From: Lachnospiraceae bacterium
Lineage (GTDB): Bacteria; Bacillota; Clostridia; Lachnospirales; Lachnospiraceae
Direction of reading: 5' to 3'
DNA: 64,000 nt
Assembly: GCA_017556805.1 (NCBI GenBank)
Contig: JAFYMC010000028.1
Location: 1 to 64,000 of the forward strand
Part shown: positions 15,752-49,720 of the stretch, one piece after another
Numbering within the stretch: position 1 is the stretch's first letter
Layout of the letters: each line of letters opens with the position of its first letter
Made by a program: the position numbers and the translations under genes
Notes under the pieces: generated by a model
Told to the model about the DNA's origin: nothing
Databases searched by the model: none
Seen by the model: the letters and a program-made list of their open reading frames with translations, nothing else

Positions 15752-15839
15752 CGAGCTAAGAATAAGAACGCGAGAACCCCGAGGAGAACTTCATGTTCTC
15801 AACCGGGGTTCTTGTGTTCTTATCGCGGCGACTGCCGCG
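15752..15839. repeat. Hairpin element shared with 44.0 kb (copy 1)
   Basis: A nested hairpin: outer stem 15762-15769 / 15816-15823, middle stem 15773-15781 / 15804-15812, inner stem 15784-15789 / 15795-15800. A GC-rich mini-hairpin (15824-15829 / 15834-15839) follows. The left flank (CGAGCTAAGA) and the right part from 15812 to 15832 recur at 44009 and 44070, while the core stem differs there. Confidence 0.7.
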
Positions 15840-15951
15840 ACCGAGGGAATACTCAGCATTCGCGAGGTTGGCTCGTTGCGTATGTCTTACCCGCGGCGAC
15901 TGCCGCGACCTAGGGAATGCGCAGCATTCCCTAGGTTGGCGAGTTGCGTAT
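15824..15951. repeat. Tandem pair of ~60-bp hairpin repeats
   Basis: Two copies, 15824-15883 and 15892-15951, start 68 bp apart. Each begins with a CGCGGC/GCCGCG mini-hairpin, continues with a GGGAAT...ATTC arm and ends in GTTGCGTAT. In copy 2 the arm is a perfect 11-bp palindrome stem (CCTAGGGAATG); in copy 1 it is partly decayed. Confidence 0.75.
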
Positions 15952-16090
15952 TACGTGCAGGCGGTGCTTCGCACCAAGCCCTCACCTCGTGACTTCGTCA
16001 CTCGGTCGTGGGCGCGTTCGCATTTCGCCGCTTTCTGCAAGCACGCTTGCAGCAGCGGCTCAATGCTCACTTTGCCTGCACGCAAAAAAA
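15952..16090. repeat. Structured intergenic element, copy 1 (downstream of rplT)
   Basis: The part 16001-16090 matches 48846-48933. Conserved blocks at 16001-16023 (23 bp identical) and about 16064-16088 (two mismatches) bracket three nested stems: P0 16020-16024/16062-16066, P1 16027-16031/16055-16059, P2 about 16035-16040/16047-16052. Additional small hairpins lie at 15963-15975 and about 15990-16000. Stem sequences differ from copy 2 but remain paired, and the P0-to-P0 span is 47 nt in both. Confidence 0.75.
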
Positions 16091-16115
16091 GCTCCCGCAC
16101 ATTACGTGCGAGAGC
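16084..16115 (-). terminator. Terminator after rplT
   Basis: A 10-bp stem (16106-16115 with 16091-16100 on the minus strand, one wobble) is followed by seven T residues. The repeat element begins directly in this T tract. Confidence 0.88.
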
Positions 16116-16131
16116 CGTTTCATTCATAACC

Positions 16132-16488
16132 TTATGCAAGCTTAGCCTTTGCAACTTCAACCAATGCGGTGAAACCTTCCGGATCGTTGATAGCCATCTC
16201 GGAAAGCATCTTTCTGTTAACCTCAACCTCTGCTAACTTCAAACCGTACATGAACTTGCTGTAGGAAAGACCGTTCATTCTTGCTGCTGCATTGATACGA
16301 GCAATCCATAACTGTCTGAACTGTCTCTTTCTTTCCTTTCTACCTGCGAAAGAAGAAGTGAGAGCTCTCATAACAGACTGCTTTGCAATTCTGTACTGCT
16401 TACTTCTGGCACCTCTGTAACCCTTAGCCAGCTTTAATACTCTATTATGTCTCTTTTTTGCGTTTAAACCGCCTTTAATTCTTGCCAT
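16132..16488 (-). CDS. rplT: 50S ribosomal protein L20
   Basis: Early-assembly 23S rRNA-binding protein; in Firmicutes it also represses its own infC-rpmI-rplT mRNA. 118 residues, the standard length, starting [23 protein letters not shown] with GGAGG upstream. Last gene of the operon, with a terminator 17 bp on. Confidence 0.97.
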
Positions 16489-18991: not shown

Positions 18992-19033
18992 AAAAAAAAG
19001 TTCGATTACAAACTATCTTGTTTGCAACCGAAC
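18992..19033 (-). terminator. Terminator downstream of galK
   Basis: On the minus strand a 14-bp stem with two G-U pairs (19020-19033 with 19000-19013, 6-nt loop) is followed by eight T residues (18992-18999). It lies about 190 bp past galK; the sequence between (19034-19219) shows no gene. Confidence 0.85.
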
Positions 19034-19219
19034 TATCATTGGAATTATTTTTCACTTTTCCTTTAGACTCCCAGCTTTGCGTCATCACATTTCTATGATT
19101 TTGCCCACTATTGTTTTATACCTTTTAAACATCACAAACAGATTCTATCATATGATCTGAAGAGTGTCAAGCAAAACCATTCATTTTTTTAAATTTGTTA
19201 ATTTTATTACATCTACGAT

Positions 19220-44009: not shown

Positions 44010-44097
44010 GAGCTAAGATAGAACAAGAAAAAGGCCGACAAGAACCGCAAGGTTCTTGTCGGTCTTCTTTTGTGTTCTTATCGCGGCGACCGCCGCG
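44009..44097. repeat. Hairpin element shared with 15.8 kb (copy 2)
   Basis: Left flank CGAGCTAAGA (44009-44018) and right part from about 44070 to 44090 match 15752-15761 and 15812-15832. The shared right part includes the CGCGGC/GCCGCG mini-hairpin (44082-44087 / 44092-44097). Between them sits the terminator of the ABC operon instead of the different stem seen at 15.8 kb. Confidence 0.7.
44033..44070 (+). terminator. Terminator of the ABC exporter operon
   Basis: A 14-bp stem with one wobble (44033-44046 / 44051-44064), GCAA loop, then TTCTTTTG. Confidence 0.9.
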
Positions 44098-46580: not shown

Positions 46581-46623
46581 TAAGCGCAAGCGCTTACGAA
46601 CCAATACGTTCCGTATTGGTTCG
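46581..46623. repeat. Two hairpins at the start of the post-tRNA repeat region
   Basis: A 6-bp stem (46581-46586 / 46591-46596) is followed directly by a perfect 11-bp stem (46597-46607 / 46613-46623). Neither has a T tract. Confidence 0.6.
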
Positions 46624-46640
46624 AAGTCTCCGCTCCGCTT

Positions 46641-47021
46641 CGGTCGGCGCATTACCGAGGTCCACCGGACCTCGTGCGCCCCGTCTTGCGCTATTGTCCT
46701 AGTCAAGTGCAAAACACATCCGTGCTCCGAAGGGTTCGATGTCGTCTTCGCTTCGCTCCGGTCCGTCCAATACTGATATCCACCGGATGTCATGGACCCT
46801 GCCGGCTCGGTCGGCGCTAAACGGTCTCCACCGGAGACCAGCGCCCCGTCTTGCGCTATTGTCCTAGTCAAGTGCAAAACACATCCGTGCTCCGAAGGGT
46901 TCGATGTCGTCTCCGCTTCGGTCGGCGCATTACCGAGGTCCACCGGGCCTCGTGCGCCCCGTCTTGCGCAAGCGCTCACGCCCCAAGGTTCAAGGTCTCG
47001 CCTGCCGGCTCGGTCGGCGCT
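46641..47021. repeat. Array of four two-tier hairpins after tRNA-Gly
   Basis: Units: 46646-46680, 46760-46798, 46813-46845, 46924-46958. Each has an outer 5-6-bp stem, an inner 7-8-bp stem, and the same apex CC-ACC-GG (loop ACC). Outer stems are GGCGC/GCGCC or GGTCC/GGACC. Inner stems differ between units (CGAGGTCC, GATATCC, GGTCTCC, CGAGGTCC) with matching changes on the other arm. CGGTCGGCGC precedes units 1, 3 and 4 and recurs at 47011. No coding gene is seen from 46536 to 47107. Confidence 0.75.
46676..46912. repeat. 72-bp direct repeat with a tRNA-Gly 3'-end segment
   Basis: 46676-46747 and 46841-46912 are identical over 72 bp, 165 bp apart. Each begins with CCCGTCTTGCGCT (46680-46692 and 46845-46857), identical to the last 13 bases of the tRNA-Gly gene. 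A third, 12-base copy is at 46958-46969. The repeat also ends with a T-arm-like GGGTTCGAT. Confidence 0.85.
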
Positions 47022-48494: not shown

Positions 48495-48791
48495 ATGTCT
48501 CACTTGGAAGACAGCACACAAACTCACAGCGCTCCTCAAAAGCTAAAAAACGCCCGCAGCAAGCAGCGTGAAAACGTAAAACGTACTGTAGAAGTATTCG
48601 AAGCCTCCTCTCCTATGGAGGACGACTTTCCGGATATTGATACCATGCAGGTCAGCTCTGCTACGGAGCTTACCGGTATGATGTACCGTCCGCCCATTAC
48701 CACTGCGGAATTGGAATCTTACCACGACTTATATGATATCCAATATGAACCGGCGGCAGCAAAGCAAGGCGCAAAAGACAGCATGAAGTAA
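48495..48791 (+). CDS. Hypothetical protein, 98 residues
   Basis: Hydrophilic small protein. A basic first third (KLKNARSKQRENVKR) is followed by an acidic middle (MEDDFPDIDTM) and a tail with two Tyr-rich patches. No signal peptide, membrane helix or known motif. AAAGGCGGTG precedes the ATG, a reasonable RBS. I do not recognise it. It is convergent with purC and separated from it by the structured element and the purC terminator. Confidence 0.6.
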   Translation: MSHLEDSTQTHSAPQKLKNARSKQRENVKRTVEVFEASSPMEDDFPDIDTMQVSSATELTGMMYRPPITTAELESYHDLYDIQYEPAAAKQGAKDSMK

Positions 48792-48792
48792 G

Positions 48793-48935
48793 TGCGTGCA
48801 GTCCTCGCGCTTTTGCGCTCTCCCACGCACTTCGCGGCACAGACGCTCGGTCGTGGGCGCGTTCGCATCATCAGAGATTTTTGGAAGCAAGCTTCCGAAT
48901 CTCTTCGATGCTCACTTGGCCTACACGCAAAAAGG
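48793..48935. repeat. Structured intergenic element, copy 2 (downstream of purC)
   Basis: 48846-48868 is identical to 16001-16023, and about 48909-48933 matches the 3' block of copy 1. Stems: P0 48865-48869/48907-48911 (GCATC/GATGC, against GCATT/AATGC in copy 1), P1 48873-48879/48898-48904, P2 48883-48886/48893-48896 extended. The span 48865-48911 is 47 nt, as in copy 1. A hairpin on the left (about 48793-48830) replaces the small hairpins of copy 1. Confidence 0.75.
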
Positions 48936-48964
48936 AGCCTCCTGCGTATCCGCAGAAGGCTCCT
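48929..48964 (-). terminator. Terminator after purC
   Basis: Minus strand: a 14-bp stem with one wobble (48951-48964 with 48933-48946), loop GATA, followed by TTTTTGCG. As with rplT, the T tract runs into the structured element. Confidence 0.88.
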
Positions 48965-48986: not shown

Positions 48987-49670
48987 TTATCTGTTTAAGA
49001 TAAGCTTGGTTAACTCAACCGGCTCTACAATCTTGCCGTCCTTGTAAACACGCATGTTACCGGAAGCGATTTCATCGATTAAGATAACTTCGTTGTTGTT
49101 GTAACCGAACTCAAACTTGATATCCCAAAGATCAAGACCGATGGACTTTAAGTCATCAGCAACAATCTTGGTAATCTTTAAGGTCTGCTCCTTCATGCTT
49201 GCAAACATCTCCGGAGTCATAACGCCGAGAGCTGCAAGACCCTCACCGGTTACAAGCGGATCGCCCAGAGCATCGTTCTTGAAAGTACACTCAACGTAAC
49301 CGCCTTCTAAAACGGTACCGTCAGCCATGTACTCACCGTATCTGCGGATGAAGCTGCCGGTAGCAACCAAACGACAGATAACCTCAAGACCGTGACCGAA
49401 TACAGTAGCAGGAAGAACTTCCATGGTAGCGTTTTCTACATCAGCGCCTACATAATGAGTCTTGATGCCGGCCTTCTTTAATAATTCGAAATAGTGAATG
49501 GAAGTCTGAAGATTAGCCTTACCGATACCCTCGATGGTCAAACCTACGGTATTCTCACCCGGATCAAAAACGCCGTCCTTACCGGTGCAATCGTCCTTGA
49601 ACTTTAACATTACATTACCGTTGTCGAGAGCATAAACATCTTTTGTCTTACCTTCATAAAGCTTTTTCAT
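48987..49670 (-). CDS. purC: SAICAR synthase (phosphoribosylaminoimidazole-succinocarboxamide synthase)
   Basis: Joins aspartate to CAIR in purine synthesis, ATP-dependent. 227 residues with [13 protein letters not shown] at the start, [26 protein letters not shown] and [25 protein letters not shown]. The start at 49668-49670 has GGAGG eight bases upstream; an ATG at 49674-49676 is too close to that site. It stands alone, with its own promoter, about 4 kb from purL. Confidence 0.95.
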
Positions 49671-49720
49671 TTTCATATCCTCCTGCGTTGGGAATAAAGA
49701 TTGTTTCAAATAACATAGAT

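Follow-up and report, generated by a model that had tools for sequence, protein, structure and literature searches.

The window analysed here, a stretch of 64,000 nucleotides from a Lachnospiraceae bacterium (assembly GCA_017556805.1, contig JAFYMC010000028.1, positions 1 to 64,000), carries two copies of a structured repeat whose family is probably a dispersed, non-autonomous mobile element that settles at terminators. We hold with good confidence that this family is a divergent branch related to Clostridiales-1 (RF01699), and not a member of it by the rule of Rfam.

Results

Two cloverleaf copies behind rplT and purC

An earlier sequence-only reading of the window had described a hairpin with a 23-bp identical block, with three nested stems that differ in their letters and yet pair in both copies, and with a start of both copies at the T-tract of a minus-strand terminator (rplT, purC). 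Direct reading bears these out: the block CTCGGTCGTGGGCGCGTTCGCAT is identical at 16001-16023 and 48846-48868, the nested stems pair, and both terminators are in place. The hairpin taken for the core is just one of three arms (arm A), however, and the closing stem and two further hairpins had been missed. Each copy is a cloverleaf of about 130 nt with a closing stem and three hairpins. On the minus strand both copies run from the terminator T-tract into a closing arm like CGTGCAGGC and then AAAGTGAGCAT or near it, continue through a variable stem, ATGCGAACGCGCCCACGACCGAG and a variable hairpin, and reach a third hairpin, which in copy 1 is GGTGCGAAGCACC, before the other closing arm, GCCTGCACG or a close variant of it. 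The features are:

15951..16085, minus strand: copy 1, whole element (covariance-model match, 138.3 bits)
16074..16082, minus strand: copy 1, 5' arm of the closing stem, CGTGCAGGC on the minus strand (sequence and fold)
15954..15962, minus strand: copy 1, 3' arm of the closing stem, GCCTGCACG (sequence and fold)
16016..16070, minus strand: copy 1, hairpin A, the three nested stems (P0 to P2) of the earlier reading, with a GA/GA internal loop (GU-GA-GCAU / AUGC-GA-AC)
15978..16013, minus strand: copy 1, hairpin B, with a second GA/GA internal loop (sequence and fold)
15963..15975, minus strand: copy 1, hairpin C, GGTGCGAAGCACC (sequence and fold)
16084..16115, minus strand: intrinsic terminator behind rplT, its T-tract touching copy 1
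16132..16488, minus strand: rplT, 50S ribosomal protein L20 (TIGR01032, E 1e-46)
48792..48930, minus strand: copy 2, whole element (covariance-model match, 109.7 bits)
48918..48928, minus strand: copy 2, 5' arm of the closing stem (sequence and fold)
48794..48804, minus strand: copy 2, 3' arm of the closing stem (sequence and fold)
48861..48915, minus strand: copy 2, hairpin A (sequence and fold)
48822..48857, minus strand: copy 2, hairpin B (sequence and fold)
48807..48818, minus strand: copy 2, hairpin C, GCGC-loop-GCGC (sequence and fold)
48929..48963, minus strand: intrinsic terminator behind purC, its T-tract touching copy 2
48987..49709, minus strand: purC, extent from the ORF finder (best NCBIfam model TIGR00081, E 2e-33; 116 bits, under the model's cut-off of 189.9)
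48495..48791, plus strand: convergent ORF of 98 aa without an NCBIfam match, its stop codon directly abutting the far end of copy 2

The cloverleaf is predicted on either strand, with RNA fold z-scores of -8.4 (copy 1) and -4.3 (copy 2) on the minus strand and of -6.4 and -4.0 on the plus strand. A protein-coding repeat was rejected, by inference, as the ORFs that run across copy 1 overlap the terminator and rplT.

Other structured sequences occur in the window. Two tandem 68-nt palindromic repeats, 82% alike, lie directly beside copy 1 (15824-15959); a related 28-nt piece stands at 44070-44097, and related repeats stand at the rplT site of the relatives G004, G005 and G007. Tandem hairpin modules (CGGTCGGCGCATTACCGAGGTCCACCGGACCTCGTGCGCC) follow a tRNA gene at 46620-46980, and by eye some members of the window's family (L018, L020, L266) carry a module of this kind as an additional, optional arm. 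The minus strand of 19020-19115 holds a c-di-GMP-I riboswitch aptamer (64 bits).

Many copies that covary

Searched with BLAST against its own genome, copy 1 gives 60 matches at E<=10, 15 of which cover at least 130 of the 156 query bases. A covariance model (R1) built from 20 near-complete copies of this genome finds 39 matches there at E<=0.1, the 20 training copies among them, and finds copies in all 10 genomes of the genus, 11-40 in each at E<=0.01. Outside the genus it has a weak match in one of 51 other relatives (G016, best E 6.2e-4, under Infernal's stricter filters). In the public genome collection an exact 23-base piece turns up in 58 stretches, whose titles name Lachnospiraceae MAGs (from roe deer, water deer and sheep, among others) and one MAG of 'uncultured Clostridia'; going by record titles, the genus is known from metagenome assemblies only. 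The earlier reading had proposed such a search and had named a lack of further copies, or copies with unpaired stems, as evidence against it; copies proved to be many and their stems pair. Phage or plasmid cargo was rejected, since blastn with copy 1 had no match in 50,697 phage and 72,556 plasmid records. The lone viral-contig match of an exact 19-mer was also set aside, as it lies in GC-rich surroundings with no other likeness by eye and no model match.

Across the 20 copies, standard pairs fill 93.3% of the paired cells (83.9% in shuffles), both sides have changed in 21 of 40 pairs (shuffle mean 12.1), and the covariation score is 0.322 against 0.150 shuffled. None of 500 shuffles reached the paired percentage, the number of both-sided pairs, the covariation score or the cell count (which is not a count of independent events, as the copies are related), and 12 of the 500 reached the count of further pair types. 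When the partner is slid by 1-3 columns, the score falls to 0.03-0.07. Chance palindromes were rejected because of the many copies and the strong covariation, and the compensatory pairs support the selection for shape that had been proposed from two copies. On reading, GA faces GA inside an otherwise paired stem in two arms of most copies, while in 3 of the 20 copies arm B has a three-base loop in its place; such tandem mismatches of G and A are stable in RNA and, with neighbouring bases like those seen here, also in DNA.

Arms could also change together through hairpin-templated mutation (template switching), without selection for shape. The gain or loss of entire arms, the nested copies and the tandem 3' modules do point to hairpin slippage, and an unrelated repeat that occupies the same sites contains host sequence in inverted duplicate. 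Template switching would, however, also erase the GA/GA loops, which are kept within paired arms in most copies, and the flanks outside the model span are no more complementary than random pairings (medians 7 and 7), for which reason complementary flanks beyond the ends of the family were rejected too. We regard this explanation as very unlikely, and selection for shape as the better reading of the compensatory changes.

As to which strand folds, R1 gave 144 matches, from which 25 outside 115-200 nt, 15 identical duplicates and one reverse-strand match of a counted element were removed. Among the 103 copies left are orthologues from sister species, two rows from G016 and a few partial copies that come second at a locus already represented. 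In their 3953 paired cells, G-U outnumbers A-C by 135 to 72 on the terminator's strand, and by 100 to 41 without the two worst-paired positions, which favours the window's minus strand as the folding strand, as RNA or as single-stranded DNA alike.

Docking at intrinsic terminators

Whether copies cluster after terminators, as the two in the window suggested, was judged by a strict rule (a stem of at least 5 bp and a T-rich tail ending at the closing stem). By this rule 71 of 100 copies begin at the T-tract of a same-strand intrinsic terminator. The count is 19 of 29 in this genome, where 1622 of 141,636 other positions qualify (1.1%); when the upstream sequence is shuffled and the real last 10 nt are kept, 429 of 2020 do (a set one row larger), a poorer control than the genomic background. 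Seven of the 29 misses are, by eye, nested copies whose outer copy docks, and the other 22 are partly near misses that have a T-tract, partly incomplete second copies and partly genuine exceptions. An opposite-strand terminator abuts the far end of 10 of 102 copies, eight of which also have a same-strand one and two of which do not, so that the orientation is a strong preference and not a rule.

A T-box or lysine riboswitch closely precedes the element on its own strand at 8 of the 23 loci of the window's family and G016 that were scanned with Rfam (two of these T-boxes score below their cut-off). Some of the docked terminators thus belong to attenuators, and elements placed between these and their genes would become part of regulated leaders. 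This bears on the possibility that the element is a cis-acting RNA useful to the host, which would act behind terminators on read-through or antiterminated transcripts, for example as a protein-binding or processing site. Strong covariation fits such a role, the excess of G-U cells is expected if the terminator's strand folds, and antiterminated leaders would contain the element at those eight loci. Nevertheless, the genes upstream differ, orthologous sites gain and lose the element or swap it for unrelated repeats, and arms are lost or expanded within the genus; we consider a host-useful RNA unlikely. The mobile element suggested in the earlier reading finds support in the copies in all 10 genomes, in terminator docking and in presence or absence between sister species.

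Corresponding sites in sister species

The element is absent from the roughly 450 nt read behind rplT in nine of nine relatives, which keep a terminator there; G003 and G006 have a TwoAYGGAY RNA at this site, and the others have other repeats or nothing recognised. At the mraZ site, filled in this genome, all seven relatives (G001, G003-G007, G009) are empty and keep the terminator, and the insertion lies within the T run: 12-14 T surround the copy against 7-9 T in the empty relatives, a surplus that could hide a T duplication. Of the six relatives in which purC was found, G005 carries behind it a full copy that is nested, two (G004 and G006) carry remnants, and G001, G003 and G009 have no recognisable copy. 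Of the three relatives compared at asnS, G003 retains arm A only, G006 little beyond the closing stem, and G007 is without the element. The flgB site was readable in five of six relatives (the anchor was not found in G007): the insertion is shared by G004, where a further module stands next to arm B; arm A is short in the copy of G005 and has been lost in G006 and G009, and G003 retains little beyond the closing stem. Several of these comparisons return decayed copies and no clean empty sites, a point against the mobile reading. Taken together they indicate that the insertions are polymorphic and decay arm by arm.

The slot between a T-box terminator and a gene that we take to be metQ-like holds the window's family in this genome (L039) and TwoAYGGAY in G003:C19, G006:C5, G007:C22 and G009:C35 (L269, L276, L270, L271, respectively); nothing was seen by eye in G001, and the anchor was misplaced in G004. 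TwoAYGGAY RNA (RF01731) has 148 matches in nine of the 10 genus genomes, 16 of them in this genome. It sits in the middle of long inverted repeats (L349, L346, L091 and others) whose arms match each other and, orthologues apart, do not match the arms of other loci. Among 20 loci used (30 returned, 23 listed), the alignment of a locus's own arms has a median of 31 (n=20), against a cross median of 9 with a maximum of 37 (n=380), and three of the 20 own pairs are no better than cross pairs. At L349, L091 and probably L346 the arms reach through the host terminator, which thus stands in inverted duplicate. This pattern may be a separate and stranger phenomenon.

Relation to Clostridiales-1

At gathering thresholds Rfam has no match within the window's element, and a known family at its cut-off was therefore rejected; relaxed scans led to Clostridiales-1. 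The statement of the earlier reading that no named family fits was not quite right, since several copies align with the full length of the RF01699 model, one of them above its cut-off of 48 bits and most below it. Four of eight loci scanned align to the whole model (1-166) on the element's strand, namely L035 (43.6 bits, E 1.1e-6), L062 (40.0), L006 (36.6) and copy 1, which at 36.0 bits falls short of the cut-off, and copy 2 has no match at E<=5. In a further scan, 3 of 15 loci of the window's family and G016 match at E<=0.01, and L086, a sister-species copy outside the R1 training set, scores 60.1; the two scans together give 7 matches in 23 loci at this threshold, with L086 alone above the cut-off. 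This genome has 10 RF01699 matches at E<=0.1, six of which are R1 copies and three others, and the only one above the cut-off is a separate canonical-like copy at C28:91837. One of 14 control genomes also matches at E<=0.1, below the cut-off. The reverse search is weak, with a best score of 19 bits (E 0.033) for R1 on 91 canonical loci.

The two share a topology, a closing stem and three hairpins in the same order, as well as a GCUUGC-capped first arm in many copies and a third arm of GUGCGUAGCAC/GUGCGAAGCAC. They differ in that the window's copies score under the cut-off or not at all, have no TGATG...CATCA outer ends (canonical ends resemble TGATGYYRGGGTCAAAAG, those of the window's branch TTTGCGTGCAGGC), have no flanking direct repeats and are docked at terminators, which is the case for 5 of 90 canonical copies. 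In G314, of another genus, the above-cut-off Clostridiales-1 copies L194 and L256 abut terminators and have freely changing closing stems, and L194 also has a tandem 3' module, resembling the window's branch.

Terminal and direct repeats of canonical Clostridiales-1

Of 299 Lachnospiraceae genomes, 161 have an RF01699 match at E<=0.001 and 130 have one above the cut-off; at most nine candidates were scored per genome, so that copy numbers are floors. We read 90 canonical copies (30 loci of the survey and 60 fetched). Beyond the Rfam model, many of them have a right end ..CTTTTGACCCCAACATCA that is an inverted copy of the left end TGATGCCAGGGTCAAAAG.. This right end was recognised with up to four mismatches in 60 of the 90, the other 30 being left out of the duplication count, and 44 of these 60 are flanked by an exact direct repeat of 5-7 bp (29 of 5 bp, 14 of 6 and one of 7), against 3.2% of 11,822 shuffled pairings. 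With at most one mismatch, the right end alone occurs 67, 60 and 38 times in three of 12 genomes and 1-18 times in the others, and the reversed pattern occurs in none of the 12. By eye, 38-bp forms (L304, L320) consist of the canonical terminal repeats alone, and 71-bp forms (L309, L314, L319, L328, L330) of terminal repeats and an arm-A-like hairpin, both flanked by direct repeats.

Inverted terminal repeats and flanking direct repeats are marks of a transposable element in canonical Clostridiales-1. Rfam types RF01699 as 'Gene; sRNA', and a table in Weinberg et al. 2010 (PMC2864571) gives Clostridiales-1 as probably an RNA and probably not cis-regulatory. Among the matches listed, from mostly non-subscription literature, no title or abstract opening on Clostridiales-1/RF01699 or on Lachnospiraceae MITEs says that it is mobile. 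The only widely spaced canonical end pair that might enclose an autonomous partner is at L305, and it relies on a poor left-end match.

Discussion

The window's branch behaves like a MITE: it is short, multi-copy and polymorphic between close relatives, and the 9-10 bp of its closing stem, to which TTG/CAA or TTT/AAA is often added, amount to terminal inverted repeats, the first position beyond the stem being paired in 49 of 70 copies (26.0 of 71 expected, in a set one row larger). We have not filed it as one because it has neither the TGATG..CATCA ends nor a flanking duplication, a target-site duplication being seen in at most one of 70 copies at any offset. In 11 stretches around partial matches, covered by a pattern search and by reading 340 nt of each, no end pair encloses a gene, and no autonomous partner was seen; two of the stretches hold ordinary copies, and a third holds what is probably a chance match within a gene. 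Multi-copy insertion sequences are often missing from fragmented assemblies.

We infer that the window's branch transposes by means of an enzyme acting in trans, which recognises the folded single strand, and that the element has no host function. Copies would arise by insertion into, or just behind, the T-tracts of intrinsic terminators, mostly in one orientation; the form recognised by the enzyme would be a folded single strand, of DNA or RNA, and once inserted the copies would gain or lose whole hairpin arms and decay. Two mechanisms are candidates: the canonical enzyme may act and duplicate the T run, the duplication eroding afterwards, or insertion may proceed by a single-strand mechanism. 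A particular form of the latter is a REP-like element of single-stranded DNA moved by a Y1 (IS200/IS605-type) transposase, strand-specifically, after a T-rich target and without target duplication. The preferred orientation, the T-rich left flank, the hairpin ends and the missing target duplication all agree with it. In REP/RAYT systems, however, the repeat flanks the Y1 gene. This genome yielded a single Y1 gene (C29:212223-212570), which has no copy in its neighbourhood: of the model matches listed, the closest on its contig is at 110332-110472. Moreover, the canonical relatives are bounded by 5-7-bp direct repeats, which Y1 enzymes are not known to make. We therefore think movement by a Y1 transposase quite unlikely.

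Group IIC introns insert behind terminators, and the window's element shares with them the position behind terminator hairpins and the preferred orientation; it differs in being only about 130 nt long, and no group II intron was matched in the Rfam scans of the window and of the loci scanned. BOX elements of Streptococcus pneumoniae are also structured, modular, interspersed and MITE-like, with a varying number of inner modules, and one of them forms a composite RNA with two T-box riboswitches; in the part of the source used here, however, nothing ties BOX to docking at terminator T-tracts, and the likeness is one of description only (PMC3049150). SPRITE repeats of the same species, as presented in that part of the source, share the terminator theme and the spread as an interspersed repeat, with the difference that SPRITE itself resembles a terminator, whereas here the terminator remains in relatives without the element (PMC3049150).

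It is possible, and we put it forward tentatively, that Clostridiales-1 is the structured body of a Lachnospiraceae transposon, of which one branch inserts where transcription stops, mostly in one orientation and without target duplication. If so, what has been catalogued since 2010 as a probable non-coding RNA would be a mobile element, and annotations that count RF01699 as an RNA gene would have to be revised. The behaviour of the window's branch suggests intrinsic terminators as a possible landing place, specific and oriented, for structured repeats. If it does insert where transcription stops, insertion would be coupled to termination, through an exposed single strand or the 3' end of a U-tract RNA, and intrinsic terminators would be a niche for mobile elements.
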